Shown piece by piece: positions 7,048-46,780 of a DNA stretch of 47,159 nt. The stretch spans positions 20,891-68,049 of the forward strand of contig MNDM01000065.1 of assembly GCA_001914955.1 (NCBI GenBank), read 5' to 3'. Positions within the stretch are counted from its first letter, which is position 1. Every line of letters starts with the position of its first letter. The position numbers and the translations under genes were made by a program. Below the pieces are notes generated by a model. That model was not told the DNA's origin. It searched no databases and worked only from the letters and a program-made list of their open reading frames with translations. This DNA comes from Nitrospirae bacterium 13_2_20CM_2_62_8. Its GTDB lineage: Bacteria > Nitrospirota > Nitrospiria > Nitrospirales > Nitrospiraceae.

Positions 7048-7284
7048 ATGAAGATACAGGTCAATGGGGAAGGTCGGACCGCGAACGCCGGCGTGACGGT
7101 CGCCGAGTTGCTCCGTGAGCTGGATATCCGACCGGACCGGGTTGCGGTGGAGGTGAATACCGAGGTCCTCAACCGTCAGGAATTTGAGCGGCGCGGCCTG
7201 CACGAGGGGGACCACGTTGAGATTATCAGCTTTATCGGAGGGGGCGCAGGAGAATGTGGCGATCTGTCGATCGGGCGATTGTGA
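7048..7284 (+). CDS. thiS: sulfur carrier protein ThiS with a C-terminal tail after Gly-Gly
   Basis: ThiS is a ubiquitin-fold carrier. Its C-terminal Gly is adenylated and thiocarboxylated, then delivers sulfur to ThiG for the thiazole of thiamine. Residues 1-66 are a normal ThiS (MKIQVNGE..., TVAELLREL, RVAVEVNTEVL, HVEIISFIGGG). The protein should end at this Gly-Gly(-Gly), but 12 more residues (AGECGDLSIGRL) follow before TGA. They are encoded by a foldback tandem-repeat array (7258-7332). As written, the carrier cannot be adenylated unless the tail is removed or ThiF tolerates it. Sequencing error is possible but no simple indel is evident. Confidence 0.88.
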   Translation: MKIQVNGEGRTANAGVTVAELLRELDIRPDRVAVEVNTEVLNRQEFERRGLHEGDHVEIISFIGGGAGECGDLSIGRL

Positions 7285-7332
7285 GATTGTTCCCCTGACG
7301 CAATCACTACATCAATAAATCGACAAATCGTG
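7258..7332. repeat. foldback tandem array, 8-nt unit, thiS end to thiG
   Basis: Four tandem octamers at 7258-7289 (examples GGCGATCT, GGCGATTG; a degenerate fifth at 7250) are followed after an 11-nt loop by four octamers at 7301-7332 that are their degenerate reverse complement (examples CAATCACT, AAATCGAC). Consensus of the left arm is about GKCGATYG. The left arm lies in the end of thiS and supplies its stop codon. The right arm ends 15 nt before the thiG ATG. Confidence 0.85.
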
Positions 7333-7347
7333 ACTACGGAGTGTTCG

Positions 7348-8121
7348 ATGTCTGATGATCGGCTCATCATAGCAGGACGTGAATTCAAGTCCCGCCTGTG
7401 GGTCGGGACCGGCAAGTATAAGGATTTTGTCGAAACCAAGAAGGCCATCGACACCGCCGGAGCGGATGTCGTCACCGTGGCCGTTCGCCGGGTCAACATC
7501 ACCGACCGTTCAAAGGAGAACCTGCTCGACTATCTCGATCCGAAAAAGTACACGATTCTCCCGAACACCGCGGGCTGTTACACGGTCGAGGACGCCCTGC
7601 GGTATGCACGGCTGGCCCGTGCCGCGGGCATTTCCGATCTGGTCAAGCTGGAGGTGATCGGCGATGAGCGGACGCTGTTCCCGGACACGGCTGGGCTGAT
7701 CGAGGCGGCCAAGATTCTGGTGAAGGAAGGATTCATCGTGCTGCCCTATACGAACGATGACCCGGTGGTGGCCAAGAAGCTCGTCGACATCGGATGTCCG
7801 GCCGTGATGCCGTTGGCCGCCCCAATCGGTTCGGGTCTGGGCATCCGGAATCCGTATAATCTAAAAATCATTCTCGAAATGGTCAAGGTTCCGGTCATCG
7901 TGGATGCCGGGGTGGGCACGGCCTCGGACGCGACGCTGGCGATGGAGTACGGAGCGGATGCGGTCCTGATGAACACCGCCATTGCCGGGGCGCGGGACCC
8001 GATTGCGATGGCCGAGGCGATGAAGTATGCCGTGGAGGCCGGTCGATTAGCGTACAAGGCGGGGCGGATACCCAGGAAGCTCTATGCGACCGCCAGCAGT
8101 CCAATCGAGGGAATGCTCTAG
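7348..8121 (+). CDS. thiG: thiazole synthase ThiG
   Basis: ThiG condenses 1-deoxy-xylulose 5-phosphate, dehydroglycine and the ThiS thiocarboxylate into thiazole phosphate. The protein is 257 residues with a (beta/alpha)8 barrel: [15 protein letters not shown] at the start, the Schiff-base lysine in [11 protein letters not shown], and phosphate-binding [14 protein letters not shown] and [14 protein letters not shown] chose the ATG at 7348 because GGAG lies 6 nt upstream; an in-frame GTG at 7330 sits in the repeat array. Length and motifs are normal. Confidence 0.96.
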
Positions 8122-8129
8122 CGCTTCGC

Positions 8130-8220
8130 GAGGTTGAGGTCGAGGCTGAGGTAGAGGACGGAGTCTGAGATAAACCAGTTCCCCTTGTCTCATGCTCAAC
8201 CTCGACCTTAACCTCAACCT
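8130..8220. repeat. foldback tandem array, 6-nt unit, thiG-thiE gap
   Basis: Left arm 8130-8159 is five tandem hexamers of GAGGYY type (GAGGTT, GAGGTC, GAGGCT). Right arm 8195-8220 is four CTCAAC-type hexamers in reverse complement. 21 of 26 positions pair exactly. The loop is about 35 nt. The same hexamer recurs in the array after waaC at 41.86 kb, the only close motif match between distant loci apart from the 9-nt and AGTAATTG families. The right arm ends 8 nt before the thiE ATG. Confidence 0.88.
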
Positions 8221-8228
8221 TTCTCCCC

Positions 8229-8861: not shown

Positions 8862-8880
8862 CCGGTTTGGTCGGCAACTG

Positions 8881-8911
8881 TTGACACCTAGTGGGAGGTC
8901 GGTGATAGAAT
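8881..8911 (+). promoter_or_regulatory. candidate promoter of the proteasome operon
   Basis: TTGACA at 8881-8886 and TAGAAT at 8906-8911, spacer 19 nt (slightly long), in the 110-bp gap before the ring ATPase gene. It would allow the proteasome genes to be expressed separately from thiSGE. No other feature is visible in this gap. Confidence 0.5.
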
Positions 8912-8971
8912 TCCGGCAGGCTGAGGCTCGGGTGTCCGCTCACGTTTCCGGGCGATCGGGGGAATCACGCG

Positions 8972-10741: not shown

Positions 10742-10797
10742 GTTCAAGCCTTGGCCCCTTGCCATGTGAGCGCCGCGAGCATGATGGAGAGATCATT

Positions 10798-12273: not shown

Positions 12274-12350
12274 CGCCTTCCACCCGAGCCGGCACACCCC
12301 TGCACGAGCTGGGACCTGACTACGAGCCGAATCGAGAGGAGACGAGAGAC

Positions 12351-18403: not shown

Positions 18404-18466
18404 AGCGAAAAGCATGCAGCTAGCAGCTCAAAGCTCTGAGCTATTTGCTGTGAGCTATTCGCTTTT
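18404..18466. repeat. foldback tandem array, 7-nt unit, DUF2062-HD gap
   Basis: Nine consecutive heptamers, almost all beginning AGC (examples AGCGAAA, AGCTCAA, AGCTATT), fill the gap. Because the second half reads as the reverse complement of the first (the arm AGCGAAW is mirrored by ATTCGCT), the block folds into a hairpin with almost no loop. Period is exactly seven throughout. Confidence 0.82.
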
Positions 18467-26095: not shown

Positions 26096-26190
26096 GTTAA
26101 TCGGGAAACGTTAACCGTTAAACGATTCCGAACAGGAAATTCTCCTCTCACAATTCACGAATAACGTGTAACGAATAACGATGAACGGCA
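26096..26190. repeat. foldback tandem array, 7-nt unit, bamA-skp gap
   Basis: Left arm 26096-26130 is five heptamers of GTTAAYC type (GTTAACC, GTTAAAC). Right arm 26156-26190 is five heptamers of AACGNNT type (AACGTGT, AACGAAT), their reverse complement. The loop of about 25 nt contains AGGAAATTCTCCT, itself a small inverted repeat. The left arm starts 6 nt after the bamA stop. Confidence 0.82.
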
Positions 26191-27486: not shown

Positions 27487-27972
27487 ATGGAGCGAGCCGG
27501 AGAGAAGGCGGGACTGAAGTCGGTGATGGATATCGCGGCCATCCGTGCGATCCTGCCCCACCGGTACCCGTTTCTGCTTGTCGACCGCATCACCGAACTC
27601 GAGGCCGGCCGGCGTATCGCGGGGATCAAGAACGTGACCGCCAATGAACCGTTCTTTCAGGGGCATTTTCCGGATCGCCCGATCATGCCGGGAGTGTTGA
27701 TCATCGAGGCGATGGCTCAAGTGGGGGGAGTGCTGGCGTTCAAGTCGGTCCCTCCGACCGGCCGTCCTGTGGTGTATCTCACGGGGGTGGACAAAGCCAG
27801 GTTCCGAAAGCCGGTCGTACCGGGCGACCAGTTGCGTTTCGAGGTGGAGGTGCTCAACCGGCGCCCCCCATTCTGGAAGATGCAGGGCAAGGCGTATGTG
27901 GAAACCGACCTGGTCTGTGAGGCCGAGCTGACGGCCATGGTGACAGAGGAGAAAGCGGACAATAGCCGTTAG
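27487..27972 (+). CDS. fabZ: 3-hydroxyacyl-ACP dehydratase FabZ
   Basis: FabZ dehydrates 3-hydroxyacyl-ACP in fatty acid synthesis and competes with LpxA for the same substrate, hence its usual place in lpx operons. The protein is 161 residues: IRAILPHRYPFLLVDRI, the catalytic His in FFQGHFPDRPIMPGVLIIEAMAQ (His and downstream Glu), and a hot-dog fold core. ATG at 27487 behind AGGA. The lpxD gene that usually accompanies fabZ-lpxA is absent here. Confidence 0.96.
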   Translation: MERAGEKAGLKSVMDIAAIRAILPHRYPFLLVDRITELEAGRRIAGIKNVTANEPFFQGHFPDRPIMPGVLIIEAMAQVGGVLAFKSVPPTGRPVVYLTGVDKARFRKPVVPGDQLRFEVEVLNRRPPFWKMQGKAYVETDLVCEAELTAMVTEEKADNSR

Positions 27973-27981
27973 ATCAGTGAG

Positions 27982-28053
27982 GTCCGTTCGTTCCGTTATG
28001 TCCGTTAACGGACTCAACCGACCTAACCGACTCAACGGATCTAACGGACGCAA
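27982..28053. repeat. foldback tandem array, 9-nt unit, fabZ-lpxA gap
   Basis: Eight contiguous 9-mers with no loop: three of GTCCGTTNN type (27982-28008) then five of CGGACTCAA type (28009-28053), the second set being the reverse complement of the first. All units are exactly nine. The frame through the array towards lpxA is open, so an N-terminally extended LpxA could in principle be read from 27977. The same 9-nt motif family recurs at 34.6, 34.7 and 34.85 kb. Confidence 0.88.
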
Positions 28054-28881: not shown

Positions 28882-29739
28882 ATGCGCGGGGATCGTAACG
28901 GAACGGCACCGGCTCCCGCCGGAGAGCGCATCGGGCTCATCGCCGGGAATGGACGGTTTCCGATCATCTTCGCGGAGAATGCGACGCGATTGGGGTATCA
29001 CGTGTCAGCGGTCGCCCATATCGGAGAGACTGCGCCCGAGCTTGAACGGTACGTCGATCGCATCCACTGGGTCAAGGTCGGGCAGCTCAATAAACTGATC
29101 AAGGCACTGAAAGAAGACGGGGTGCGCCAGGCGGTGATGCTCGGGGGGATCAAGAAGACGCACGTGTTCACCACCGTCAGACCGGACTTGCGGGCGCTGG
29201 CTGTGGCAAGCCGTCTCAAACGGTTGAAGGACGATTCGATCTTGCGCGAGGTGGCGGCCGAGCTGGAGAAGGAAGGGATTACGATCCGCGAGTCGACCTT
29301 CGGACTCCAGGGCATCCTGGTCGAGGACGGCCCGCTCACGAGGCGGGTTCCCGGCAAGAAAGAGTGGGAGGACATCCGGTACGGGTGGGAGGTGGCCGGC
29401 GAGGTCGGGCGGCTCGACATCGGCCAGTGCGTCGTGATCAAGGAGCGAGTGGTCGTGGCGGTAGAGGCTGCAGAGGGGACGGACGAGACGATCCGCCGTG
29501 GCGGGGCTCTCGCCCGCGAGGGGGCCGTGGTGATCAAGCGAAGCAAACCTCAGCAAGATCTCCGGTTCGATCTTCCGGCGGTGGGACCGGCTACGGTCGA
29601 GACGATGGCGTCGGTGAAAGCATCGGTCCTGGCGGTGGAGGCCGGGCGAAGCGTGCTCCTAGATCGGGAGATGACGCTCCGCAAGGCCGATCAGGCGGGA
29701 ATTGCGATCGTCGGCGTCAGCAGTAGTGATGAGTGGTGA
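28882..29739 (+). CDS. lpxI: UDP-2,3-diacylglucosamine pyrophosphatase LpxI
   Basis: LpxI hydrolyses UDP-2,3-diacylglucosamine to lipid X and is the non-homologous replacement of LpxH. The protein is 285 residues: RIGLIAGNGRFPIIFAENA, GQLNKLIKALKEDGVRQAVMLGGIKK, then the catalytic region KVGQ..., GWEVAGEVGRLDIGQCVVIKERVVVAVEAAEGTD with its Asp and Glu, and KPQQDLRFDLPAVGPATVE. ATG at 28882. The last few residues (SSSDEW) overlap the first units of the 7-nt array after the gene. Confidence 0.93.
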   Translation: MRGDRNGTAPAPAGERIGLIAGNGRFPIIFAENATRLGYHVSAVAHIGETAPELERYVDRIHWVKVGQLNKLIKALKEDGVRQAVMLGGIKKTHVFTTVRPDLRALAVASRLKRLKDDSILREVAAELEKEGITIRESTFGLQGILVEDGPLTRRVPGKKEWEDIRYGWEVAGEVGRLDIGQCVVIKERVVVAVEAAEGTDETIRRGGALAREGAVVIKRSKPQQDLRFDLPAVGPATVETMASVKASVLAVEAGRSVLLDREMTLRKADQAGIAIVGVSSSDEW

Positions 29740-29820
29740 GCAACGAGCGATGAGCAATGAACACAAGAGCAGGGCGGTCGCGACTCGGGCCTCGTCACTC
29801 AGTGCTCATTACTCGTCACT
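29725..29820. repeat. foldback tandem array, 7-nt unit, lpxI end to oxidoreductase
   Basis: Left arm 29725-29759 is five exact-phase heptamers of consensus AGYRRYG (AGTGATG, AGCAACG). Right arm 29793-29820 is four heptamers of CRKYRCT type (CGTCACT twice), their reverse complement. Loop 33 nt. The first two units encode the end and stop of LpxI. The right arm ends 6 nt before the next ATG. Confidence 0.9.
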
Positions 29821-29826: not shown

Positions 29827-30783
29827 ATGAAACGGATCCGGGTCGGCGTCATCGGTGTCGGGCACCTGGGACAGCACCACGCCCGCTTGTATGCCAGCCT
29901 GGCTGGCGCGGTCCTGGCAGGCGTGGTGGACGCCGATCCGGATCGCGCTCGGCTCGTGGCGGAGCGGCATGGTGCATCGGTCTTCGGCGACCCGGCTACG
30001 TTGCTGGAAAAGGTGGACGCCGTCAGCGTGGCGGTGCCGACCTCGTCGCACTACGCGGTGGCCAAGGCCTGCCTGGCGGCGGGTGTCCACGTCCTGGTAG
30101 AAAAACCGATTGCCATCACGCCGGGTGAGGCCCGCGAACTCGTGGAGCTGGCGCGAGCGCGCGGGCGCGTGCTCCAGGTGGGGCACATCGAGCGGTTCAA
30201 CCCGGGGATTCGGTCGGTACGTCCACATATCGGGAAACCGGGCTTCGTCGAATGCCACCGCCTGAGTCCGTTCGGGGAGCGGGGCACCGACGTGGACGTG
30301 GTGCTGGACTTGATGATCCACGACCTGGACATGGTCCTGTCGTTTCACCCGGGGCCGGTCGAAGAAGTCCGCGCCGCGGGGGTTCCGGTGTTGTCCTCAA
30401 ACATCGACATCGCCAACGCCCGCATCGTGTTCGGCAGCGGGTGCGTCGCCAATCTGACCGCCAGCCGCGTGTCGACGACTCGCATGCGGAGGCTCCGCCT
30501 GTTTCAGCGCGACGCCTACGTGTCGGTTGACTATCAGACTCGTCAAGGAATGATCTGCCGACGGGTGACCGGGCGCCATGGTCGCCCCGAGATCGAGGTC
30601 GAGCACGTGAAAGGGGGAGATGAGGAGCCGCTCAAACTGCAGATCGAGGCGTTCCTGCACGCCATCGCGACTGGAAGCCCTCCCCCCGTCCCCGGTGAAG
30701 ACGGCGTCGCGGCGCTGGAGCTGGCGCACCAGGTATTGGAGGCGATCGGCGCATTCGTCAGGCGCCACACGGAGAAGGGGTAA
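29827..30783 (+). CDS. Gfo/Idh/MocA oxidoreductase in the lpx operon, GnnA-like
   Basis: A 318-residue NAD(P)-dependent sugar oxidoreductase: Rossmann motif RVGVIGVGHLGQHHARLY, VEKPIAI (catalytic Lys), GHIERFNPG, and DLMIHDLDMVLSF with the conserved His. Its position between lpxI and lpxB recalls GnnA of Acidithiobacillus ferrooxidans, where gnnA and gnnB lie between lpxA and lpxB. There they convert UDP-GlcNAc to the 3-amino sugar used for amide-linked lipid A. The aminotransferase partner GnnB is not in this window, so the role is inferred. Confidence 0.85.
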   Translation: MKRIRVGVIGVGHLGQHHARLYASLAGAVLAGVVDADPDRARLVAERHGASVFGDPATLLEKVDAVSVAVPTSSHYAVAKACLAAGVHVLVEKPIAITPGEARELVELARARGRVLQVGHIERFNPGIRSVRPHIGKPGFVECHRLSPFGERGTDVDVVLDLMIHDLDMVLSFHPGPVEEVRAAGVPVLSSNIDIANARIVFGSGCVANLTASRVSTTRMRRLRLFQRDAYVSVDYQTRQGMICRRVTGRHGRPEIEVEHVKGGDEEPLKLQIEAFLHAIATGSPPPVPGEDGVAALELAHQVLEAIGAFVRRHTEKG

Positions 30784-30862
30784 CGGTGTATCGTTGTAGA
30801 GGGGTAGCGGAAGAACGGAGTACTGATCGCGTTACCCCCTTACCCCGTTATTCCGGTACCCC
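30777..30862. repeat. foldback tandem array, 8-nt unit, oxidoreductase-lpxB gap
   Basis: Left arm 30777-30808 is four octamers of GGGGTANC type (GGGGTAAC, GGTGTATC, GGGGTAGC). Right arm 30831-30862 is four octamers of GTTACCCC type (GTTACCCC, GTTATTCC), their reverse complement. Loop 22 nt. The first unit contains the stop codon of the upstream gene; the right arm ends 12 nt before the lpxB ATG. Confidence 0.9.
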
Positions 30863-33923: not shown

Positions 33924-34585
33924 ATGTTCAACGACATGTTCACGTGGCTGAAGCAGACGCTGGTCCCGCCCATCGGGGCATGGCTGATCCGATTCTTAGG
34001 GAAGGCCGTCCGCATCCGGACAGAAGGAGCCGAGACCGTGGACGAGCTGTACCGTCAAGGCCGGCGCCTGATCATCACGTTCTGGCACGGGCGGCAGCTC
34101 ATGATGCCCCTCGCCTACCGTGGAGCAGAGGCGCATATCCTCATCAGTCAGCACCGGGATGGAGAGTTAATCCACCGGATCGTAACCCGCTTCGGGGGCC
34201 GTTCGGTGAGGGGATCCACGACCCGCGGCGGTGCGGCGGCCCTCAGACAGCTCATCGAACTCGGGCGGTCAGGCGTGGACCTGGCGGTCACACCGGACGG
34301 GCCCAAGGGCCCGCGGCAGGTGGTCCAGATCGGCGTGATCCACCTGGCGAAGGCCACCGGCCTCCCGATTGTTCCGCTCACGTTCAGCTGCTCAAAAAAA
34401 AAGTCTTTGTGAGCTGGGACCGGTTCCTGCTGCCGTATCCGTTCGGCCGAGGACTGTTCCTGTGGGGGAAGCCGATCTGGGTCTCGTCTGCGGCGACGGC
34501 GGCCGACCTGGAATCCAAACGGATCGAGCTTGAGGAGGCTCTGAACCGGATCACGGCGGAAGCCGACGATGCGATGGAGTGTTGA
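33924..34585 (+). CDS. DUF374 acyltransferase-like protein, frameshifted at an A9 run
   Basis: The family resembles lysophospholipid/lipid A acyltransferases and sits in lipid A clusters near msbA and waaA. The first frame (from ATG 33924) gives 162 residues: IRTEGAETVDEL, ITFWHGRQLMMPLAYRG, SQHRDGELIHRI, DGPKGPRQVVQIGVIHLAKATGLPIVPLTFSC, then stops. The second frame continues the family fold (VFVSWDRFLLPYPFGRGLF...) to 34585. The two join by a -1 shift at nine A residues, 34394-34402, which in zero frame contain A-AAA-AAG, the dnaX slippery heptamer. A full product would be about 220 residues. Programmed or transcriptional slippage, phase variation and sequencing error are all possible. Confidence 0.8.
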
Positions 34586-34743
34586 GTCAGTTGTGTCAGT
34601 TGGGTCCGTTGTGTCCGTTTAACGGATTAAACCGACGAAACTGACTCACGGACTAAACAGACAAAACTGACTCAACGAGAATCGGTGTGTTCTTATGACG
34701 GACTAAACGGACATAACAGACTAAACGGACCAAACGAACAGAA
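34586..34743. repeat. two 9-nt tandem arrays filling the DUF374-waaA gap
   Basis: The first array has four 9-mers of GTCNGTTGT type (34586-34621) followed by about six of the reverse complement type (CGGACTAAA, CTGACTCAA; 34623-34675, one unit short by a base). A second array at 34699-34743 has five more units (CGGACTAAA, CGGACCAAA and variants) without its own left arm. Its last unit touches the waaA ATG at 34744, leaving no room for a normal ribosome binding site. The whole 158-bp gap is made of these units plus about 23 nt. Confidence 0.88.
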
Positions 34744-36153
34744 ATGTGGTACTTGCTGTACAACGTCCTTCTGATCCTGGCTTCACCGTTCATCCTCTTG
34801 ATCCTCCTGGCCAAGAAGCGATGCCGGCCCGGTCTTGCTGAGCGACTCGGTCTGTTTGGTCTGTCTGGTCTATTTCGTCTCTTCGGTCAGAACAGACCGA
34901 ACAGACCAAACAGACTAAACAGACCGGACGAACCCGTCATTTGGATCCACGCCGTATCGCTGGGCGAGGTGGTGGCGGCTGTGCCGCTGGTGCGCCTGCT
35001 CCACGGTCGCTACCCGGAGTATCGACTGGTGGTCTCGACGGTCACCGACACCGGACGCGAGGCGGTGGAGCAACGGCTCGCCGGCGTGGCCGAACACTGG
35101 TATGCCCCGTTAGATTTTCCGTGGGTCGTCTCGCGCGTTGTGGCGAGGCTGAACCCGACCGCCTTTCTCTTCGTCGAGACGGAGCTGTGGCCGAACCTTC
35201 TTCGAGCGCTCTCGCGACGTGGCGTGCCGTCCATCCTGGTCAACGGCCGATTGTCGTCCCAGTCGTTCAAAGGGTACGGGCTCGTACGGCCCTTCATCCG
35301 TCGGGTGCTCGAGACCGTCACGTTCTGCTTGATGCAGTCTGAACGGGATGCCGAACGCATCGTCGCACTGGGCGCCGCGCCGACTCGCGTGCTGCGCACC
35401 GGGAACATCAAATTCGATCAGCCCGTGCCCGGGCGTACAGGCCAGCAGGATGGTCTCTCGCGTGGAGAGATCAATCTGGCCGAACATGAAGAATTGATCG
35501 TGGCCGGAAGCACCCACCCCGGGGAAGAGGAACAACTCTTGGCCTGTTACCAGACCCTGCTCCGGGAATTCCCTGAGCTGGTGCTTCTGCTCGCCCCCCG
35601 TCACATTGAACGAGCGGCTGCGGTCGAAGCCGTCGTGAGATCGAAAGGGTTGGTGGCGCTTCGCCGGAGCGCATTCCGTGGACTCGGCGCGACTTCGTCT
35701 CAACGCGGGGCTCCTCGAGTGGTGATCCTGGATTCGCGAGGGGAGCTGGCGGCTGTCTACCAGCATGCGGTCCTCGCATTCGTGGGCGGGACGCTGATAC
35801 CGGTAGGGGGTCATAATCTTCTGGAGCCGGCGCTCTGGGGCAAGCCCGTGTTCTTCGGACCCCACACCGACCATTGCGCGGAGGTGGCCGAACTTCTGAT
35901 CCGGGCCGGCGGCGCGGTGCGGGTCGGCGACGGGGTCGAACTGGCTGCCAAGATGGCCGGGCTCCTTCGGGACCGAGCAGGTCTGCACCGCGTGGCTGCG
36001 GCGGCCCGGGGGGTGGTCATCGAAAACCAGGGGGCGGTCGAGCGAAGCCTCGAGCTGATCGGACGGGTGCTAGGGAGCCGTGAGCGCTCTGATGGGAAAC
36101 GGCTGATCGGCCAATCCTCCCATGCCGCGGGCATGGCGAAGGTTGAGCGGTGA
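34744..36153 (+). CDS. waaA: Kdo transferase WaaA (KdtA) with an in-frame repeat insertion
   Basis: WaaA adds Kdo to the lipid A precursor at the inner membrane. The protein is 469 residues: N-terminal anchor helix (NVLLILASPFILLILLA), GT-B N-domain with WIHAVSLGEV (Glu75 as likely catalytic base), NGRLSSQSFKGY, LRTGNIKFD, then HPGEEE, LAPRHIERA, FVGGTLIPVGGHNLLEPALWGKPVFFGPH. Residues 36-62 are a tandem-repeat insert, (GLF/GLS/RLF) then (RPN/RLN/RPD) tripeptides, encoded by nine 9-mers at 34849-34929. It sits between the anchor and the catalytic domain, where enterobacterial WaaA has an ordinary basic linker. Confidence 0.93.
   Translation: MWYLLYNVLLILASPFILLILLAKKRCRPGLAERLGLFGLSGLFRLFGQNRPNRPNRLNRPDEPVIWIHAVSLGEVVAAVPLVRLLHGRYPEYRLVVSTVTDTGREAVEQRLAGVAEHWYAPLDFPWVVSRVVARLNPTAFLFVETELWPNLLRALSRRGVPSILVNGRLSSQSFKGYGLVRPFIRRVLETVTFCLMQSERDAERIVALGAAPTRVLRTGNIKFDQPVPGRTGQQDGLSRGEINLAEHEELIVAGSTHPGEEEQLLACYQTLLREFPELVLLLAPRHIERAAAVEAVVRSKGLVALRRSAFRGLGATSSQRGAPRVVILDSRGELAAVYQHAVLAFVGGTLIPVGGHNLLEPALWGKPVFFGPHTDHCAEVAELLIRAGGAVRVGDGVELAAKMAGLLRDRAGLHRVAAAARGVVIENQGAVERSLELIGRVLGSRERSDGKRLIGQSSHAAGMAKVER
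34849..34929. repeat. foldback 9-nt array inside the waaA coding sequence
   Basis: Nine contiguous 9-mers in the waaA frame: four of GGTCTGTTT type (34849-34884), one turn unit, and four of AGACCAAAC type (34894-34929), which is the reverse complement. Each unit is three codons, so the array is translated as tripeptide repeats without disturbing the frame. Motif resembles the arrays just upstream of the gene. Confidence 0.92.
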
Positions 36154-36160: not shown

Positions 36161-37318
36161 ATGTTGAACCTCAGCGAGCGCGAGGCTCTGGGCGGCTATC
36201 AAGAGAGGTCCCACGCATTGCCTGGTACCGGTCTCACAGCACCCGGAAGCAGCGATCAGCGTTCCTCATTCCTCAGGTGGCCGCTACGGGCGCTGGCCTG
36301 GCCCTATGGGCTCGCGGTCCGGGCGCGCACCGCGCTCTACGAGCGGGGCTGGCTGCCTCGTCGAAGGCTGCCCTGTCGAGTCGTGAGCGTCGGCAATCTG
36401 ACGGTCGGGGGAACCGGAAAGACTCCGGTCGTGATCTCGATCGCGGAATGGCTGCTCGCCCGCGGCAAACGGGTCGGAGTGCTGAGCAGGGGCTATCGCC
36501 GGCGAAGCCGGGCGCCGCAGTTGCTGGTCTCGGACGGCCGGAGGATCCTGGAGGGGCCCGCCGAGGCGGGAGATGAGCCGCATCTGATCGCGTGGCGATG
36601 CCCAGGCGCGGTCGTCGCGGTCGGCACAGATCGGTACCGCCTTGGCCGATGGGTTCTGGAGCGGTTTCCGATCGATTGTTTCGTGCTGGACGACGGCTTC
36701 CAGCACCTCGCGTTGCATCGCGACGTGGATCTCCTGCTGATCGACGCCTCCGATCCGGGAGGGCTGGAGGCGCTGCTGCCGGCCGGCCGTCTCCGGGAGC
36801 CACTGACAGCAGCGGCCCGCGCGACCGCGCTACTGCTGACGCGAGCCGATGTGGTTGCCGGTCCGAATACGCTCTTGGCTTCGATCCGAGCGGCGACCGG
36901 AAGAGACAGTCGGCCGATCCTCATCCGGTTCATACCTGAGGCCTTGGTGAACATGGTCACGGGGATGCTCGAGGAGGTGGCGTCTGCGGCGGGGCGCACG
37001 GCGGTGGCCTTCAGCGGGATCGGTAATGCCGTGTCGTTCCGGACATTGCTGGCCGACCAGGGACTGAAGGTCCTCGACGACCTGGTGTTTCCGGATCATC
37101 ACGGCTATACCGCTGAAGACCTGAGCCTGATCAGAGATCGGGCCGGGCGCTGCGGCGCGGACATGATCGTGACGACCGAAAAGGATGCGGTGAAGGTGGC
37201 GACGCTGGTCTCCCGGACGGACCGGCTCTGGGCGCTACGGCTCCGCACCGAGATCATGGAAGGACAAGCGCGGTTGGAGGGGCTGCTCCTGGGGAACGAA
37301 CAGTACAGACAATTTTGA
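36161..37318 (+). CDS. lpxK: tetraacyldisaccharide 4'-kinase LpxK
   Basis: LpxK phosphorylates the 4' position of the lipid A disaccharide. The protein is 385 residues: the P-loop-containing SVGNLTVGGTGKTPVVISIAEWL, LSRGYRRRSR, GDEPHLIAWRCPGAVVAVGTDR, CFVLDDGFQHLALHRDVDLLLIDA, PAGRLREP, and the later FPDHHGYTAEDL and TTEKDAVKV. The family motifs are complete. The N-terminal about 40 residues are variable; ATG 36161 is the first after the waaA stop. The last codons and stop overlap the first unit of the following array. Confidence 0.93.
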   Translation: MLNLSEREALGGYQERSHALPGTGLTAPGSSDQRSSFLRWPLRALAWPYGLAVRARTALYERGWLPRRRLPCRVVSVGNLTVGGTGKTPVVISIAEWLLARGKRVGVLSRGYRRRSRAPQLLVSDGRRILEGPAEAGDEPHLIAWRCPGAVVAVGTDRYRLGRWVLERFPIDCFVLDDGFQHLALHRDVDLLLIDASDPGGLEALLPAGRLREPLTAAARATALLLTRADVVAGPNTLLASIRAATGRDSRPILIRFIPEALVNMVTGMLEEVASAAGRTAVAFSGIGNAVSFRTLLADQGLKVLDDLVFPDHHGYTAEDLSLIRDRAGRCGADMIVTTEKDAVKVATLVSRTDRLWALRLRTEIMEGQARLEGLLLGNEQYRQF

Positions 37319-37399
37319 ATTGTGAATGGTGAATTTTGAATGATGGTCTTGCCAAAGAGTGGCCCCAGCGATTCACAATTCAACGATCAAGATTTACAA
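37313..37399. repeat. foldback tandem array, 7-nt unit, lpxK-waaF/gmhB gap
   Basis: Left arm 37313-37340 is four heptamers of TTKTGAA type (TTTTGAA twice, TTGTGAA, TGGTGAA). Right arm 37372-37399 is four heptamers of reverse complement type (TTCACAA, TTTACAA). A 13-nt block TTGAATTGTGAAT pairs exactly between the arms. The first unit contains the lpxK stop codon; the right arm ends 7 nt before the next ATG, so no Shine-Dalgarno sequence is present. Confidence 0.88.
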
Positions 37400-37406
37400 T
37401 GCATCG

Positions 37407-39128
37407 ATGCGAATTGAGTCAGTAAAGCGGCTGCTCGTGCGGGGACCCAACTGGGTCGGCGATGCCATAATGGGCGAGCCTGCGCTGAGTGCGCTGCGCG
37501 GGCTGTTTCCGACCGCCGAGATCACGTTGCTGGTCAAGCCGACGATCGCGGAGTTGCTGGGAAACCATCCGGGGCTGGACCGGATGCTGGTCTATGACAG
37601 CCGCCGCCAGCATGCCGGACTCACCGGCAAATGGGCGCTGGCACGTGCATTACACCGTCTGCGGTTCGACCTGGCGATTCTGTTTCAGAATGCGTTCGAA
37701 GCGGCCTTGCTGGCCTTCCTGGCCAGGATTCCGCGCCGTTACGGCTATGCGACCGACGGCAGGAGCCTGCTGCTGACCGATCCGATCGCGCTGCCGGAAC
37801 GGGCAAGGGGTATCCATCAAGTCGAGTATTACCTGCAACTCATTCGGCCGCTGGGCGCGGACGGACCGTCCGGCTCCCCCCGACTGTTTCTCTCGGATGG
37901 CGAGGTGGACGCGATGCGCCGCCGGCTCGTCCAGGCCGGCATCGGCGAGACCGACCTCGTCGTGGGACTCAATCCCGGCTCCACTTACGGAACGGCCAAG
38001 CGGTGGCTGCCAGAACGGTTTGCCGAGACGGCGGACCGGCTGGTGCGGGAGCATGGGGGGAAGGGCTTGCGGGTGGTGATCGTGGGGGCGCGGGGTGAGG
38101 AAGCTCTGGGCCGGGCCATCGCGGAGAGGATGCAGGCCAAGCCGGTCCTGCTTTCGGGCCAGACCTCCATCCGCGAACTGATGGCGGTGATCAGGCGCTG
38201 CGGACTGTTCGTCACCAATGACACCGGACCGATGCATATCGCGGCCGCGTTCGGCATCCCGGTCGTGGCCGTGTTCGGCCCGACCGATTCACGAACGACC
38301 GCGCCGACGGGGGACGGGCACACCATTGTGCGTCATCCGGTTGAGTGCTCCCCCTGCCTGTTGCGCGAGTGCCCGATCGACCACCGGTGCATGACGCGGA
38401 TCTCGGTGGACGAGGTCTTTGCCGCCGCGAACAAACAGTTGTCAGGTATATCTGGTTTGTCCGCTCTATCTGGTTCGCCGGATTTGGAGCAGACGAACCA
38501 AACACACGAGACAAACCAACCGACCCGCCTGGACGGGGTGACCGTCTTTCTGGATCGAGATGGCACGCTGAACCGGGACACGGGCTATGTGAAGACTCCG
38601 GAGGAGCTTGAGCTGTTTCCCGGCGTGATCGAGGCTGTCGCTCGGTTGAATCAGGCCGGCGCGCGCGTCGTGCTGACTACGAATCAGTCCGGGGTCGCCC
38701 GCGGACTGATCACGACTGCCGCGCTGGACGCCATTCACGCGCGACTGCGCGCCCTCCTGGAGGCGGGTGGCGCGTCGCTCGACGCGATCTACTATTGTCC
38801 GCACCATCCCGATGATGCCTGCTCCTGCCGGAAGCCCCGGACCGGTCTGGTGGACCGGGCGGTTGGTGACCTCGGCCTCGACCCGTCACGGGCCTATGTG
38901 GTGGGGGATCAGAACCGAGACATGGAGTTGGCCCGCAAAATTGGCGCGCGAAGCGTCCTGGTGACGACCGGTCCGACGAGCCAGGAGGCGCTTACACTCT
39001 CGAAGTCGAATGGACTGCGGCCGGATCGCGTGGCGACCGGACTGGGGGAGGCGGTGGATTGGATCCTGGAGGACGCGGGGAGGGTGGAAGACCGACAGTT
39101 GTCGTTACCCGAGAGTCGGCAATGGTAA
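37407..39128 (+). CDS. waaF: fusion of heptosyltransferase II and heptose-bisphosphate phosphatase (WaaF-GmhB)
   Basis: Residues 1-344 are a GT9 heptosyltransferase ([57 protein letters not shown]) adding the second core heptose. Residues from about 374 are GmhB, a HAD phosphatase making heptose 1-phosphate: Asp383 and Asp385 in [20 protein letters not shown], the zinc-binding [14 protein letters not shown], and [11 protein letters not shown]. The 29-residue linker (345-373) is encoded by a foldback 9-nt repeat array. One polypeptide therefore holds heptose precursor synthesis and transfer. The start, ATG 37407, lacks a ribosome binding site. Confidence 0.92.
38439..38525. repeat. foldback 9-nt array forming the WaaF-GmhB linker
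   Basis: Four 9-mers of TTGTCAGGT/CTATCTGGT type (38439-38474), two divergent turn units, then three of ACGAACCAA type (38493-38519), the reverse complement. In frame they encode [12 protein letters not shown] and TNQ-THE-TNQ. The array lies exactly at the domain boundary of the fusion. Confidence 0.88.
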
Positions 39129-40720
39129 GAGTCGCCTGCATCGGAGGAGGGGCCTGGGGAGCGAACTTGATCCGGAACTTTTCGACTCTCGGCGCCCTGC
39201 ACGCGATCTGTGACAGCGACCCCGAAACCCTGAAGCGGCATGCGAAGACCTACCCGCAGGTGGCGGTGAACGAGTCTTTCACCATGCTCTTGAAGCATCC
39301 GGCGCTCGATGCGGTCGTGATTGCGACCCCTGCGGGGCAGCACGCCTCCATGGTCAAGCAGGCACTGGAGGCCGGGAAAGACGTGTTCGTGGAGAAGCCT
39401 CTGGCGCTCACCCTGCCGGAAGGGCGTGAGGTGGTCGAGATGGCTGCGCGTGCCTCCCGGATTCTGATGGTCGGCCACGTCCTGCAGTACCATCCGGCCG
39501 TGCGCGCTCTGAACGGGCTGATTGCTCGGGGGGAGCTCGGCAAGGTCCAATACGTGTATTCCACCAGACTGAATATCGGGAAGTTTCGTCGCGAAGAGAA
39601 CATCCTCTGGAGCTTTGCGCCCCATGACATTTCCACCATCCTCCTGCTGGTGGGCCAGATGCCTTCGACGGTTCAGGCCAGCGGAGGAACCTATCTCCAG
39701 CAGGGGATCCCTGACGTGACGATCACGTCACTGGCCTTTCCCAGCGGGGTGAAGGGACACGTGTTCGTGAGCTGGCTGCACCCCTTCAAGGAGCAGAAGC
39801 TGGTCGTGGTCGGGGACAAAAAAATGGCGGTGCTGGACGATCTCTCGAAGGAGAAACTCGTCCTGTACCCGCATCATGTGGACTGGATTGACCGCGCACC
39901 GGTCGCGCGGAAAGCGGACGCCGAGGTAGTGCCGGTCCCGGCCGAAGAGCCGCTGGCGAACGAATGTCGCCATTTTCTGGACTGCGTGGAACGCCGCATC
40001 CAGCCGCACACGGACGGACGGGAGGCGCTTCGAGTGCTGGAAGTGCTGCATGCCGGCCAGCTCTCGCTCGACCGCGAAGGGGCGGCGGTGCGGCTGGGGA
40101 CTGCGAGCGAGCCCACCAACCAAGGGGTTCAGGTTCATCCCACGGCGATCGTGGACCAGCCCTGCGAGATCCTGCCGGGCACCAGGATCTGGCACTTCTC
40201 GCACGTGCATGCCGGCTGCCGGATTGGCGCGGACTGCAACATCGGGCAGAACGTGGTGATCGGACCCCACGTGACGATCGGAACGCGTGTCAAGATCCAG
40301 AACAACGTGTCGGTCTACGAAGGAGTCACGCTGGAAGACTTCGTCTTTTGCGGCCCTTCGATGGTGTTCACCAACGTCATCAACCCCAGAAGTGCCATCC
40401 CAAGGAAAACAGAGATCAAGAAGACGTTGATCAGGCATGACGCGACACTGGGCGCGAACTGCACGATTGTGTGCGGCGTGACGGTGGGCCGGTACGCCTT
40501 CGTGGGAGCAGGAACGGTCGTCATCAGAGACGTCGCGGATCATGCGCTGGTGGTCGGCAATCCGGCCCGCCAGGTGGGATGGATGTGCGAATGCGGGATC
40601 ACGCTCAATGTTCTGAAGGGTCGGGCGAAGTGCGAGGCGTGCGGCGCCCGGTATGCCGTAGACCGGAAACGTGGCTGCCGCCGCGTCGATAAAGCGTCGC
40701 TCGTGGAGGGCACCTCGTGA
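39122..40720 (+). CDS. fusion: Gfo/Idh/MocA dehydrogenase, hexapeptide N-acetyltransferase and zinc ribbon (WbpB-WbpD type)
   Basis: The protein is 532 residues. Residues 1-330 are a Gfo/Idh/MocA oxidoreductase ([42 protein letters not shown]). Residues 335-490 are a left-handed beta-helix acetyltransferase ([28 protein letters not shown]..., [15 protein letters not shown]). About 490-520 hold a CECG...CEACG zinc-ribbon-like end. This pairing corresponds to WbpB (UDP-GlcNAcA 3-dehydrogenase) and WbpD (3-N-acetyltransferase) of diacetamido-uronic acid synthesis. The aminotransferase WbpE is not in the window. The ATG overlaps the end of the upstream gene by 7 nt. Confidence 0.87.
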
Positions 40721-40841
40721 AGCGTGAAGCGTATCTCGCGAGATGAAGCCAGTAACTAAGTAATTGAGTAAGTAAGTAAATTACTCAATTACCAATTACT
40801 CAATTACTTCTGCCAATGCCAGATACGAGTGACGAGATACG
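40716..40841. repeat. nested pair of foldback arrays (7-nt outside, 8-nt inside) before waaC
   Basis: Outer left arm 40716-40743 is four heptamers (CGTGAAG twice, CGTATCT, CGCGAGA). Inner array 40751-40810 has octamers of AGTAATTG type (AGTAACTA, AGTAAGTA) turning into their reverse complement (ACTCAATT twice), with an exact 14-nt pairing. Outer right arm 40821-40841 is three heptamers (AGATACG twice, AGTGACG), pairing with the outer left arm through CGTATCTCG. The last unit abuts the waaC ATG at 40842. The inner motif matches the array at 46.7 kb. Confidence 0.88.
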
Positions 40842-41903
40842 ATGACTAACTTCCGCCGTATCCTGATTATCAAGCCCAGTTCGCTGGGGGATGTCGTGCA
40901 CGCGCTGCCCACGTTGGCCGCGCTGCGGCAGACGTTTCCCCATGCGCACATCGCGTGGTTGGTGAAGCGCCAGTGGGCAGGGCTGTTGGAACGAGTGGAG
41001 GGACTCGATGCGGTGTGGCCCGTCGAGTCCGGCGTGACAGGCTGGTTGTCAGCGATTCGACGACTTCGTGCGGCCGGCTTCGACCTGGCAGTTGACCTGC
41101 AGGGCCTGCTGCGCAGCGGGGCCATGGCGCGGCTGGCCGGCTGCCCGACGAGGATCGGCTTCGCCAACGCCCGGGAGGGCAGTCCGTTTTGTTACACCCA
41201 TCGGGTGTCGGTCGCGACCACGGAGATGCATGCGGTGGATCGCTACCTGCTCGTCGCGGCCGCGTGTGGAGCGTCGGTAAGGGGAGCGCCCGAGTTCCGA
41301 CTCCGTCCCTTGCCAGCGGACCGGCAGGAGGTCGCCGTCCTCCTGGGCCGGCATGGCCTGCCTGCGCGCGAGCCGTGGATCGGGGTGAGTGTCGCTGCCC
41401 GGTGGCCGACCAAGCGGTGGCCGCCGGAGTTCTTCGCGACCACGATGGATCATCTTCAGGAGAAAGGGTTGGGGCGCGTGGTGTTGATCGGCGGACCGGA
41501 TGATCGGGCTGCGGCACAGGCTGTCAAGGGTCTGATGCGGACCGTGCCGATGGATTTGACCGGAGCAACCGCGCCCGGCCTGCTGCCGGCCTTGCTGGAA
41601 TCGGCCGCGCTCCTGTTGACCAACGATTCCGGGCCCATGCACGTGGCAGCGGCCATGGGGACCCCGGTGGTCGCGCTCTTCGGTCCGACCAGTCCGACCC
41701 GCACCGGCCCCTATGGAAACGGGCATCGCGTACTGAGGAGCGGGGTCCCCTGCAGCCCCTGCTTCAGCCGAACCTGTCGCAACACGGTGTACCTTGAGTG
41801 TCTGAAGACTATTTCTCCCGACAAGGTGATTGAGGCGGTGCGCGATCTATTGAAGAAGGTCGAGGTTAAGGCTGAGGTTGAGGCTCAGGCCCGATCCAGC
41901 TGA
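40842..41903 (+). CDS. waaC: heptosyltransferase I-like GT9 glycosyltransferase
   Basis: A 353-residue GT-B enzyme: RILIIKPSSLGDVVHALPTLAALR is the WaaC-type N-terminus, with FDLAVDLQGLLRSG, VSVAARWPTKRWPPEFF, and LLTNDSGPMHVAAAMGTPVVALFGPTSPTRTGPYG in the donor domain. It probably adds the first heptose to Kdo. The C-terminal about 14 residues (KVEVKAEVEAQARSS) are encoded by the left arm of the 6-nt array at 41856. The gene starts directly after another array and has no visible ribosome binding site. Confidence 0.88.
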   Translation: MTNFRRILIIKPSSLGDVVHALPTLAALRQTFPHAHIAWLVKRQWAGLLERVEGLDAVWPVESGVTGWLSAIRRLRAAGFDLAVDLQGLLRSGAMARLAGCPTRIGFANAREGSPFCYTHRVSVATTEMHAVDRYLLVAAACGASVRGAPEFRLRPLPADRQEVAVLLGRHGLPAREPWIGVSVAARWPTKRWPPEFFATTMDHLQEKGLGRVVLIGGPDDRAAAQAVKGLMRTVPMDLTGATAPGLLPALLESAALLLTNDSGPMHVAAAMGTPVVALFGPTSPTRTGPYGNGHRVLRSGVPCSPCFSRTCRNTVYLECLKTISPDKVIEAVRDLLKKVEVKAEVEAQARSS

Positions 41904-41940
41904 AAATCCTCACTCAACCTTAACCTCAGCCTCAACCTAG
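41856..41940. repeat. foldback tandem array, 6-nt unit, waaC C-terminus and gap
   Basis: Left arm 41856-41890 is five to six hexamers of RAGGYY type (GAGGTT, AAGGCT). Right arm 41913-41936 is four hexamers of CTCAAC type (CTTAAC, CTCAGC). 21 of 26 positions pair exactly. The left arm is translated as the last residues of WaaC; the right arm ends 9 nt before the next ATG. The unit is the same as in the thiG-thiE array. Confidence 0.9.
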
Positions 41941-41945
41941 GGTTT

Positions 41946-45114: not shown

Positions 45115-45116
45115 CA

Positions 45117-45905
45117 ATGGAACGGAACCGGGTGTCGGCTGTGGTCATCGCCTACAACGATGAACCCAACATCCGCGCTTGCCTCGAGACCCTGACCTGG
45201 GCTGATGAGATCATCGTCGTCGATTCCCACAGCTCGGATGCAACCGAGAAGATCAGCCGGGAGTTCACCGACAAGGTGTACCAGCACGAGTTTAAGGGGT
45301 TCGGACGCCTGAGGAACGAAGCGGTGGCCCACGCGACGCATGAGTGGGTCTTCAGCCTGGACACCGACGAGCGCATGACGCTGGAGCTCCGTGACGAGGT
45401 CCGAGGGGTGCTCGCGAGCGGACCGCGGGCTGATGCCTACTTCGTCCCACGCCGGAACTACTTTCTAGGACGATGGATCCGGCACTCTGGCTGGTATCCG
45501 GACTACCGGCAGCCTCAACTGTTCCATAAGGATCGGATGCGCTATCGTGAAGAGATCGTCCATGAGGGTTTTGATCTCGAAGGAAAGGCATCCTTCCTGA
45601 AAGAGCATGTTGTGCAGTACCCCTTTCGCGATGTCGATCACTATCTTCAGAAAGTGAACCGGTATGCAGGACTAATGGCCCATCGCATGGTCGAACAGGG
45701 GGCGCCATTCCGCACCCATCAACTCGTGACGCATCCTCTGTTTACCTTTGCGAAGATGTACGTGGCACGATTGGGAATCTTGGACGGCATGCCTGGGTTG
45801 ATACTGGCCGGGCTCTATGCCTATTACACGTTCCTGAAGTACGCGAGGCTGTGGGAGATGAGCGTTGATCGGACGTTAAGTGTTCCTGGACGAAGAGCCC
45901 TCTGA
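45117..45905 (+). CDS. WaaE/KdtX-like family 2 glycosyltransferase
   Basis: A 262-residue GT-A enzyme: VSAVVIAYNDEPNIRACLETLTWADEIIVVDSHSSDAT, FKGFGRLRNEAVAHATHEWVFSLDTDERM (DxD in LDTDER), and the HSGWYPDYRQPQLFHKDRMRYREEIVHEGF block characteristic of WaaE-type core beta-glucosyltransferases. A C-terminal hydrophobic helix (LILAGLYAYYTFLKYARL) anchors it. ATG 45117 is preferred; a GTG at 45111 overlaps the previous stop (GTGA). The next gene begins right after the stop. Confidence 0.87.
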   Translation: MERNRVSAVVIAYNDEPNIRACLETLTWADEIIVVDSHSSDATEKISREFTDKVYQHEFKGFGRLRNEAVAHATHEWVFSLDTDERMTLELRDEVRGVLASGPRADAYFVPRRNYFLGRWIRHSGWYPDYRQPQLFHKDRMRYREEIVHEGFDLEGKASFLKEHVVQYPFRDVDHYLQKVNRYAGLMAHRMVEQGAPFRTHQLVTHPLFTFAKMYVARLGILDGMPGLILAGLYAYYTFLKYARLWEMSVDRTLSVPGRRAL

Positions 45906-46676
45906 ATGAAACAATTGCCCTTCTGGCAAAGACCGTATTTCGCTCGGCGTGTTCTTGACATCGGATCGGGACACAATCCATTCAAGGGTGCCACCTATGT
46001 GGTGGATTTCGACCTGAATGAGGGTCGGGATCGACATGGCAATCCGCTGGTCGTGCCCGAGCCGGCTCGACTGTTTGCCGCAGATGTGCAGGCGCTGCCA
46101 TTCCAGGCGAGGTCCTTCGATTATGTCTATGCGTCTCATGTGCTGGAACACGTGGATTGGCCGGGCGACGCGTGCCGGGAGATCATGCGAGTCGGTTCCG
46201 CCGGGTACGTTGAGACGCCGAGCCCCTTGCTCGAGCAGGGACTTGCCTACAAGGACAAGGACCTCCCGGAGTATTGGATGCACAAATGGTTCGTGTGTTC
46301 CCCCGCTCCGGCTGTCTTGGTCTTCGAGCCAAAGACTCGGACCACCATCTCGGAGTTTTGCACCTGTTCGGATGGCCAGTTCATGAAAGAGTTTTATGAC
46401 AGCCTCGATTTTCGCGTGGCGCAGCATTGCATCCGACGCAAGGCAAAAACGACCATCTTTTTCTGGAAATCCTCGTTTGTCGTGGAGGTCGGGGATCGCA
46501 CACTCAACTGCGGTGACGGGTCAAAGGTCTGTCGATTTCGCGGAATGAGGCGGGCGCTGGTGGCGAGCTGTAATGATCTGTGGCGTGCCCACCGTCTCCT
46601 CCGGTTGAAGCGGACGTTTCCAAACAGCCGGATCGTCTTTCGGAAGTACGGAGAGCGAACGTTGTTCATCCACTGA
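45906..46676 (+). CDS. class I SAM-dependent methyltransferase
   Basis: A 256-residue protein with the methyltransferase-11-type core: RRVLDIGSGHNPFKGATYVVDFDLNEG (SAM-binding glycine motif), ADVQALPFQARSFDYVYASHVLEHVDWPGDACREIMRVG, then a variable C-terminal half. In this context it may methylate a sugar or process a glycan, but the substrate is unknown. It starts immediately after the GT2 gene and ends the tightly packed part of the cluster. Confidence 0.8.
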   Translation: MKQLPFWQRPYFARRVLDIGSGHNPFKGATYVVDFDLNEGRDRHGNPLVVPEPARLFAADVQALPFQARSFDYVYASHVLEHVDWPGDACREIMRVGSAGYVETPSPLLEQGLAYKDKDLPEYWMHKWFVCSPAPAVLVFEPKTRTTISEFCTCSDGQFMKEFYDSLDFRVAQHCIRRKAKTTIFFWKSSFVVEVGDRTLNCGDGSKVCRFRGMRRALVASCNDLWRAHRLLRLKRTFPNSRIVFRKYGERTLFIH

Positions 46677-46682
46677 GAGGAC

Positions 46683-46780
46683 ATCCGTCGCTGCGACGGA
46701 GAGTAATTGAGTGAATAAGTAAATGAGTAATTGGCGGCAAAGCACACGGAAGACTGTCTCGCTCACTTCCTTAATTACTC
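46683..46780. repeat. perfect small palindrome and foldback 8-nt array at a gene breakpoint
   Basis: The stretch starts with an 8-bp inverted repeat TCCGTCGC/GCGACGGA (about 46684-46700). Four tandem octamers follow at 46701-46732 (GAGTAATT twice, GAGTGAAT, AAGTAAAT). After a 28-nt loop comes a degenerate reverse-complement arm (46761-46780, ending AATTACTC). The unit is the same as the inner array before waaC. The right arm runs into the truncated glycosyltransferase that follows. Confidence 0.8.

Follow-up and report, generated by a model that had tools for sequence, protein, structure and literature searches.

Convergent foldback arrays of degenerate short tandem units recur in about nine classes in a Nitrospirota genome and often belong to another class in a sister species

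Introduction

Short arrays of degenerate tandem units that return as their own reverse complement (foldback arrays) are scattered along a 47,159-nt stretch of DNA from Nitrospirae bacterium 13_2_20CM_2_62_8, here called the window (G000:C76:20891-68049; contig MNDM01000065.1; assembly G000, 2.0 Mb in 86 contigs, 73% complete). We found that the arrays belong to about nine recurring unit classes and that common rules hold across many of them: convergent polarity of the two arms, a set number of units per arm, independent variation of the arms, and the swapping of one class for another at orthologous sites. We tentatively read the arrays as minimal non-autonomous elements recognized in trans.

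Short degenerate tandem repeats have been reported for years in single organisms and explained variously, as quadruplexes, regulator sites or slippage products. In Xanthomonas, GGGNATC heptamers show a preference for four units (range 2-26), lie mostly between aligned open reading frames (ORFs) and rarely between divergent ones, form convergent paired sites in 70 and 75 cases in two genomes, and have their prominent repeats at different genes in two related species; Rehm et al. (2015) favor G-quadruplex formation (PMC4692102). The same paper describes few pairs among the GGGGA(C/T)T repeats of Nostoc (PMC4692102). The P6b stem of the Nostoc trnL intron is built of degenerate 7-nt units (TDNGATT or NNTGAGT), one heptamer class having repeatedly replaced another (Kaasalainen et al.; PMC4476775), and cyanobacterial short tandemly repeated repetitive (STRR) sequences form hairpins between genes, their function being given as unknown (PMC2670836). 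Geobacter metallireducens carries class 1-4 "global regulator binding sites" whose tandem units measure 7-9 nt (class 4 has 5 of them), of which classes 1 and 2 occur as opposite-strand pairs at variable distance, together with a further heptamer family between and within genes; its authors proposed sites of global regulators, possibly IHF/HU (PMC2700814). In Beggiatoaceae, 7-nt TAACTGA units are repeated in tandem, mostly between genes, and some are split by related heptamers (PMC4679880).

The kind of array is partly known already from these scattered single-organism examples, and a sequence-only reading of the window, which knew of no described element class of this nature, was mistaken there: Xanthomonas has published convergent pairs of degenerate heptamers (PMC4692102), and arrays related to them are described from Nostoc (PMC4476775) and from Geobacter metallireducens (PMC2700814). 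Within the open-licence literature we found no paper tying Nitrospira to such repeats; as far as these searches show, what is new is that general rules extend over many classes and that classes are swapped from junction to junction.

Detection and abundance

Arrays were sought with a detector requiring a period of 6-9, at least three units per arm, inverted pairing and a loop of at most 120 nt, which is biased toward self-similar arrays. It returned 14 arrays in the window at a score of at least 2.5 and 10 at a score of at least 3, compared with 0.1 and 0.03 per dinucleotide-shuffled window (30 shuffles), which bears out the sequence-only reading in its claim that the arrays are real and speaks against the equal frequency in shuffled sequence that would have refuted it. 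A second test combining inverted repeats with periodicity gave 8 matches in the window and 0 in 10 shuffles; one of these 8, at 29833 (period 6, score at least 2.8, inside a GFO/IDH ORF), looks like a coding false positive.

At a score of at least 2.8, 67 arrays were found in 508,196 nt of G000 (13.2 per 100 kb; shuffles 0.13) and 37 in 275,747 nt of G001 (13.4 per 100 kb; shuffles 0), a sister species that is syntenic with the window over about 40 kb at about 90% identity. The nearest named loci in a WaaA search were metagenome assemblies labelled Nitrospirae bacterium and Nitrospira sp.; the family group of 14 named loci around waaA (WaaA identity of at least 53%; one record, L102, is titled Acidimicrobiia) holds 43 arrays in 209,924 nt, and a 20-locus waaA panel holds 106 in 358,968 nt. 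Three panel loci (L185, L187 and L201) come from the same genomes as L100, L101 and L103 and were dropped from the coding and model-scan counts, leaving 17 genomes. Class models trained on G000 and G001 only and then run on these 17 further genomes found 163 arms and 54 pairs (shuffles: 2 arms, 0 pairs). Within the panel, L200 has no array at 2.8 or above in 20 kb (one at 2.67), and L201, 91% identical to it over 10.5 kb, has six in 12 kb.

Common rules of units and arms

Clustering at periods 6-9 gave about nine recurring classes with near-invariant core positions and freer ones, the consensi being ATAGCNA, GTTGAG, GGTCTGTTT, CGTGANG, ANCGTTA, GTGNTGA, GGGGTAA, TGAGTAAN and TTTGAAT; two small period-6 clusters, probably coding, were excluded from this count. 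In finer clustering, the GGTCTGTTT class splits into GTCNGTTNN in G000 and GGTTTGTCT in G001. Most classes were found in several genera, the AGTAA class in G000 and G001 only, and motifs recur within the window itself (period 9 at 27982, 34586, 34849 and 38439; period 6 at 8130 and 41856; period-8 AGTAA at 40716 and 46701). The earlier view that each locus carries an unrelated motif therefore gives way to a limited set of classes, most of them common to the sister species and other genera.

Polarity is nearly uniform. By clustering, 132 arrays run one way and 5 the other, 10 of the 147 arrays falling in clusters of fewer than three and being left out. A model scan blind to pairing and restricted to non-overlapping arms gave 103 convergent (T..T') and 2 divergent (T'..T) pairs in G000, G001 and the 14 family loci, and 54:0 in the 17 further genomes. 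An earlier model scan had given 86:2, with one row dropped whose model had converged on the AGC class and with some arms recounted by overlapping period-7 classes. The first arm contains more G than C in 128 of the 147 arrays.

The number of units per arm is likewise constrained. Over 247 paired arms, the median arm is 27, 33, 33 and 39 nt long for periods 6, 7, 8 and 9, which corresponds to 4.50, 4.71, 4.12 and 4.33 units; single arms span about 2 to 11 units, arms under about two units being missed because the arm-length seed needs two. Since arm length rises with the period (7 and 8 tie), units rather than nucleotides seem to be counted.

The two arms vary independently. Across 146 arm pairs, identity between arms at variable positions was 0.639 in register and 0.640 once the order of units had been permuted (Wilcoxon p 0.66; the period-7 classes used overlap, so that some arms are counted more than once), and an earlier mirror test with a simulated control had the same outcome. 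Identity of adjacent units compared with units at other loci was 0.775 versus 0.704 for period 9, 0.704 versus 0.674 for the AGC class, 0.762 versus 0.804 for period 6, and 0.845 versus 0.700 for CGTGAGG (five loci). The excess of likeness within an array is thus modest at most in three classes; it is clear in CGTGAGG, the smallest, and some local duplication may have occurred there. Few two-unit words are shared, about as many as expected, and single-unit words exceed expectation only in the period-6 class (141 vs 95.0).

Class exchange at orthologous sites

The arrays of the window, to which no strand is assigned, and the two ORFs that host arrays are listed below with their state in G001.

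7258..7330, foldback array of period 8 (CGAT-type) at a gene junction; other units in G001
8130..8220, foldback array of period 6 (GAGGTT class) at a gene junction; G001 slot with a period-7 ACGCGTG array
18404..18463, foldback array of period 7 (AGC class) at a gene junction, score 2.43; same in G001 bar one unit-sized indel
26096..26186, foldback array of period 7 (CGTTA class) in the gap that separates a BamA-like ORF from the one after it; inverted segment in G001
27966..28047, loopless foldback array of period 9 (GTCNGTTNN) with 41-nt arms; G001 slot with a period-7 array
29725..29820, foldback array of period 7 (GTNNTGA class) at a gene junction; same in G001 bar one 7-nt unit
30777..30862, foldback array of period 8 (GGGGTAAC class) at a gene junction by lpxB; other units in G001
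34581..34676, foldback array of period 9 upstream of waaA; G001 slot with a period-7 GTGAAGC/GAGATAC element
34698..34736, extra period-9 right arm (AACNGACNN), pairing back to 34590-34621
34848..34926, in-frame period-9 foldback array in waaA, at the boundary between N-terminal segment and glycosyltransferase domain; rewritten in G001
37311..37391, foldback array of period 7 (TTGTGAA) at the junction from lpxK to the GT9/HAD ORF; rewritten in G001
38453..38518, period-9 foldback array within one ORF at the GT9/HAD boundary; rewritten in G001
40715..40850, outer element with a GTGAAGC/GTATCTC left arm and an AGATACG right arm; class kept in G001
40758..40809, inner period-8 AGTAATTG hairpin with a 14/14 outer stem, placed inside the outer element's loop; missing from the G001 copy
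41857..41938, foldback array of period 6 at a gene junction; G001 slot with a GGGGTAAC array
46701..46781, foldback array of period 8 (AGTAA class); same class in a matching, poorly alignable G001 segment
34744..36153, plus strand, waaA-like Kdo transferase ORF (PF04413), host of the in-frame array
37359..39128, plus strand, GT9 (heptosyltransferase) and HAD ORF (PF01075, PF13242), host of a period-9 array

Sixteen start points had been put forward from the sequence alone. Eleven of them score at least 2.8 (7258, 8130, 26096, 27982, 29725, 30777, 34586, 34849, 37313, 41856 and 46701) and three are weaker (18404; 40716, at 2.71 within its junction; 38439, at least 2.4). The remaining two did not stand as arrays: 34699 is the lone right arm of 34586, and no array was detected in the window junction of 33825 down to a score of 1.9, its G001 counterpart scoring 2.43.

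Comparison of orthologous gaps revealed unit-sized indels, class swaps and rewritten arrays between G000 and G001. Judged by eye at 15 junctions or in-gene sites, six hold other units in G001 (7258, 8130, 27982, 30777, 34586 and 41856), six the same class (18404, 26096, 29725, 33825, 40716 and 46701) and three the same period in rewritten form (34849, 37313 and 38439). The 150-nt flanks of the swapped sites are 88-98% identical at 7258, 8130, 27982 and 41856, 95/82% at 34586 and 90/78% at 30777. Most neighboring regions are about 90% identical to G001, compared with 75.1% for lpxB (30875-31986) and 81.5% for the region 40825-42965 with two GT9 genes, so that import by recombination is possible beside 30777 and 41856. 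At 40716, judged by eye, window and G001 both have the outer element, but only in the window does its loop contain the period-8 hairpin; the two loops do not align.

Similar exchanges were seen among relatives. L100 and L101 (88.5% identity) differ, by eye, by a class swap near L100 14528, and at L100 11473-11678 a period-9 array lies within a AGGCTGAAGG foldback, the L101 element lacking that array. In the panel, L183 and L184 differ in period at 13205 (9 and 7) and at 16878 (9 and 6). The junction from lpxK to the GT9/HAD gene measures 4-23 nt in seven relatives; it holds an array of period 7 in both the window and G001, and one of period 9 in L100 and L101. Over ten close pairs compared in both directions, junctions with an array were retained in 17 of 40 cases versus 43 of 66 for reference junctions without one (Fisher p 0.027), or 43 of 55 once 11 cases with an array in the changed counterpart are set aside; this count, like that of gap orientation below, rests on a crude ORF caller.

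Genes of the window and placement of the arrays

Ten window ORFs were checked against Pfam, and the right half of the window is a lipopolysaccharide gene cluster (LpxA-type acyltransferase, LpxB, WaaA, LpxK, GT9, BamA-like), in which 8 of 11 non-overlapping junctions carry a foldback array. The labels fabZ, lpxI, msbA, skp and lptX, used as working names in the junction survey for genes outside these ten ORFs, are ones we presume. Window positions 42875-45242 span 2368 nt and include a sulfatase-domain ORF; their counterpart in G001 is only 307 nt long and contains a period-9 array (g1 39512).

RNA folding of eight arrays gave z from -2.5 to -8.1, and an Rfam search of the window returned 0 matches above the gathering score. 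Folding pairs CCGTTAGATC at 27966 as the outer unit of the period-9 arm, and its interpretation as the remnant of an older array was withdrawn. Sense-strand G.U bias was absent (32 G.T vs 27 A.C mismatches), and RNA wobble selection was rejected. Arrays may be mildly depleted between divergent genes (8 of 91 vs 60 of 351 gaps).

Most arrays sit in gene junctions, and those within open reading frames are chiefly of periods 6 and 9. The arrays reach into proteins. Two window arrays lie inside protein-coding frames, at 34849 in waaA and at 38439 in the GT9/HAD ORF, and an in-frame period-9 array occurs in WaaA of many relatives, other relatives having no repeats at this site (it was readable at first in 13 of 30 loci, the others lying on the other strand and some of these being examined separately). 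At a score of at least 3.2, an open frame runs through 23 of 78 arrays of periods 6 and 9 and through 6 of 76 of periods 7 and 8; for period 9 in G000 alone, the count is 1 of 15.

Purifying selection on unit cores is not claimed, since the tests disagree. One comparison was biased by cores that had been defined from the tested sequence itself. A further alignment test looked positive, with 7 of 157 core versus 51 of 281 non-core positions substituted (2 of 70 vs 12 of 148 in the subset with array identity of at least 0.89), and a stricter gapless retest with outside models was negative, with 7 of 84 versus 8 of 84 (period 9: 5 of 24 vs 5 of 30), which are small numbers.

A possible reading: non-autonomous elements recognized in trans

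The measured rules speak against quadruplexes as a general reason and against an origin by foldback copying; a reader or writer acting in trans is what they predict. We lean, tentatively, toward minimal non-autonomous elements with unit arrays that are recognized in trans, and prefer this explanation to selected sites and to a writing process. Multimeric proteins acting in trans would recognize each arm as an array and read it one unit at a time, and arms and loop together would form a mobile hairpin whose ends are unit arrays, similar to a miniature inverted-repeat transposable element (MITE) or to a hairpin of paired repetitive extragenic palindromes (REPIN). Such an element would enter permissive junctions, including the loops of older elements, and could later be lost or overwritten; hairpins in mRNA between operon genes would be a by-product or secondary use. 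That the class grammar is common to genera despite the turnover of single arrays points to something trans-acting, and a trans-acting reader would explain this shared grammar together with fixed polarity, fixed unit number and free loops.

REP/REPIN and bacterial interspersed mosaic elements (BIME) are small inverted intergenic non-autonomous repeats with a conserved sequence and a REP-associated tyrosine transposase (RAYT). Unlike these, the copies described here share a class grammar only, close copies are few, and RAYT was not found in G000; unlike MITEs, the 104 arrays of G000 and G001 do not comprise many near-identical copies with terminal inverted repeats. Some copying happens, and there is no family of close copies. 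Whole-element copies including the loop were found in G000 at L016 3563 and 17544 (91% over 163 nt) and at L019 459 and L021 7796 (88% over 103 nt). Another nine pairs among the 104 arrays, each within one genome and eight of them of period 9, are 85-88% identical over 40-68 nt. The L016 copies (3563-3668 and 17544-17690; AGC class), which lie 14 kb apart in opposite orientation with loops about 96% identical, are the clearest duplication seen.

Several observations weigh against this reading. Only two pairs among the 104 arrays reach 88% over 100 nt within one genome, and 30 of the 41 loops of at least 30 nt have no second match in the 784 kb sampled, a result that upholds the initial view that the arrays share an architecture and are mostly not copies of one element. 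Whole-genome searches with four arrays gave class-level or partial matches only (e.g., 85% over 67 nt): no near-identical copy over the full length turned up for those at 27982, 8130 and 41856 in their own 73%-complete genome, for the one at 41856 in G001 either, or for the G001 array of the 8130 slot in G000 or G001. No target-site duplication could be defined in the junction pairs compared, which are too divergent. The RAYT-type transposase (PF01797) matched in 11 of the 18 genomes searched and is missing from 7, including G000, whose incompleteness makes such an absence weak evidence. Many arms have no partner in the model scan; in two period-7 classes, for example, they make up 26 of 42 and 27 of 37 arms. 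Changed junctions with an array in the reference hold one in the partner in 14 of 23 cases, versus 11 of 23 for changed junctions without an array in the reference, with no clear excess of reoccupation. In Xanthomonas, genomic stability is reported to be raised near the similar repeats, and mobile elements are generally not associated with them (PMC4692102).

Alternative explanations

Somewhat unlikely, in our judgment, is a second explanation, in which the arrays are old regulatory or structural sites under selection: tandem units on opposite strands would be binding sites for a nucleoid factor or an RNA-binding one, or the mRNA would fold into a hairpin there between the genes of an operon. 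Units of any class could serve, and class differences between species would arise by recombination with relatives. Fixed unit count and polarity, the strong hairpins, the apparent mild depletion between divergent genes and the positive core alignment test agree with such sites, as does the proposal of global regulator sites for Geobacter (PMC2700814), and the 75-82% identity between sisters in the regions adjoining 30777 and 41856 fits recombination import. Against them stand the gapless test, in which core and non-core positions evolve alike, pairing at variable positions no better than chance, the lack of a sense-strand G.U bias, and the class swaps at 7258, 8130 and 27982 within closely similar flanks.

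Improbable is genome-wide DNA writing, in which a trans-acting machine would flank a break or the tip of a hairpin with four to five degenerate units on each side, following one of about nine grammars and copying no donor. A telomerase-like enzyme would add degenerate G-strand repeats to both 3' break ends, the joining of which gives T..T'; convergent polarity, set unit number, class-wide sequence, and unique or absent loops are all predicted, and the G-rich first arm agrees. About nine templates would be needed, however, and PF00078 reverse transcriptase is present in 3 of 20 genomes and Ku in 2 of 20 (absent from 17 and 18, respectively), both missing from G000 and G001 and also from three near-complete genomes that bear arrays (G036, G062 and G084); other polymerases were not searched. 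If writing did occur, gene junctions would be rewritten on the time scale of speciation, and a machine of this kind would also have produced the repeats of Xanthomonas, cyanobacteria and Geobacter.

Very improbable is the local origin of each array that the sequence-only reading had proposed, by replication slippage together with foldback synthesis or template switching. It would suit the differences between loci, the loops without another match, the lack of donors for the four searched arrays, the unit-sized indels in two arrays (18404 and 29725), and the greater likeness of adjacent units in CGTGAGG and period 9. As the main source, however, slippage is contradicted by arms that center on 4.1-4.7 units, and units only modestly more alike within an array than across loci in the AGC class and less alike in period 6, despite a detector that favors self-similarity, speak less clearly against it; foldback synthesis and template switching are contradicted by the lack of mirror pairing and do not predict a fixed polarity. 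The recurrence of one class grammar at many loci and in other genera likewise speaks against local origin.

Selection of units as four G-tracts forming a quadruplex, as proposed for GGGNATC, can practically be dismissed as a general cause. Like the Xanthomonas repeats (PMC4692102), the arrays favor about four units, pair convergently and seem to be scarce between divergent ORFs, but the same polarity and a similar unit number are seen in the classes, most of the set, whose consensi lack GGG (GGTCTGTTT, ATAGCNA, GTTGAG, CGTGANG, ANCGTTA, GTGNTGA, TGAGTAAN and TTTGAAT). A quadruplex may apply to the GGGGTAA class alone.

Relation to published repeats

The arrays share with the Xanthomonas repeats degenerate units with constant and variable positions, convergent pairs and about four units; there, however, one motif of period 7 is described (PMC4692102), whereas here about nine motifs of periods 6-9 occur, most of them lack G-tracts, classes are swapped at orthologous junctions, and some copies lie inside genes. 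As in the cyanobacterial STRR and trnL P6b repeats, degenerate tandem units form a stem and one class replaces another at a single site (PMC4476775, PMC2670836), but the cyanobacterial repeats are described from particular loci, with two classes in one intron (PMC4476775). The Geobacter sites share multiple classes, tandem units and opposite-strand pairing, and their motifs differ from ours (PMC2700814). The Beggiatoaceae repeats also consist of short tandem units; they are one motif in direct repeats, mostly upstream of start codons, with one inverted case (PMC4679880).

Occurrence outside the family

Eight other Nitrospirota loci hold 4 arrays in 128,521 nt, and the class models found 3 arms and 1 pair there. 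In 58 loci of other phyla, the detector gave 46 matches in 1,024,870 nt versus 10 in one shuffle, many of the 46 resembling period-6 hits in GC-rich genes, and the class models found 12 arms and 0 pairs (1.02 Mb). The expectation that unrelated genomes would show far fewer such arrays holds for these classes. Against the arrays being special to this lineage, same-style arrays with other motifs occur in a deltaproteobacterial locus (L113), two Omnitrophota loci and one Lysobacteraceae locus. L113, from a groundwater metagenome-assembled genome, carries eight period-7 foldback arrays with other motifs in 21 kb.

Other repeats were also met. At L062 9243-9373, the 75-nt loop of a detector match recurs at 98-99% identity in L021 and L015 and represents a different dispersed repeat family of this genome. 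In the gammaproteobacterial L169, three near-perfect TCATCCTGAGCG hairpins, at 3096, 11680 and 14877, appear to be another type of dispersed repeat.

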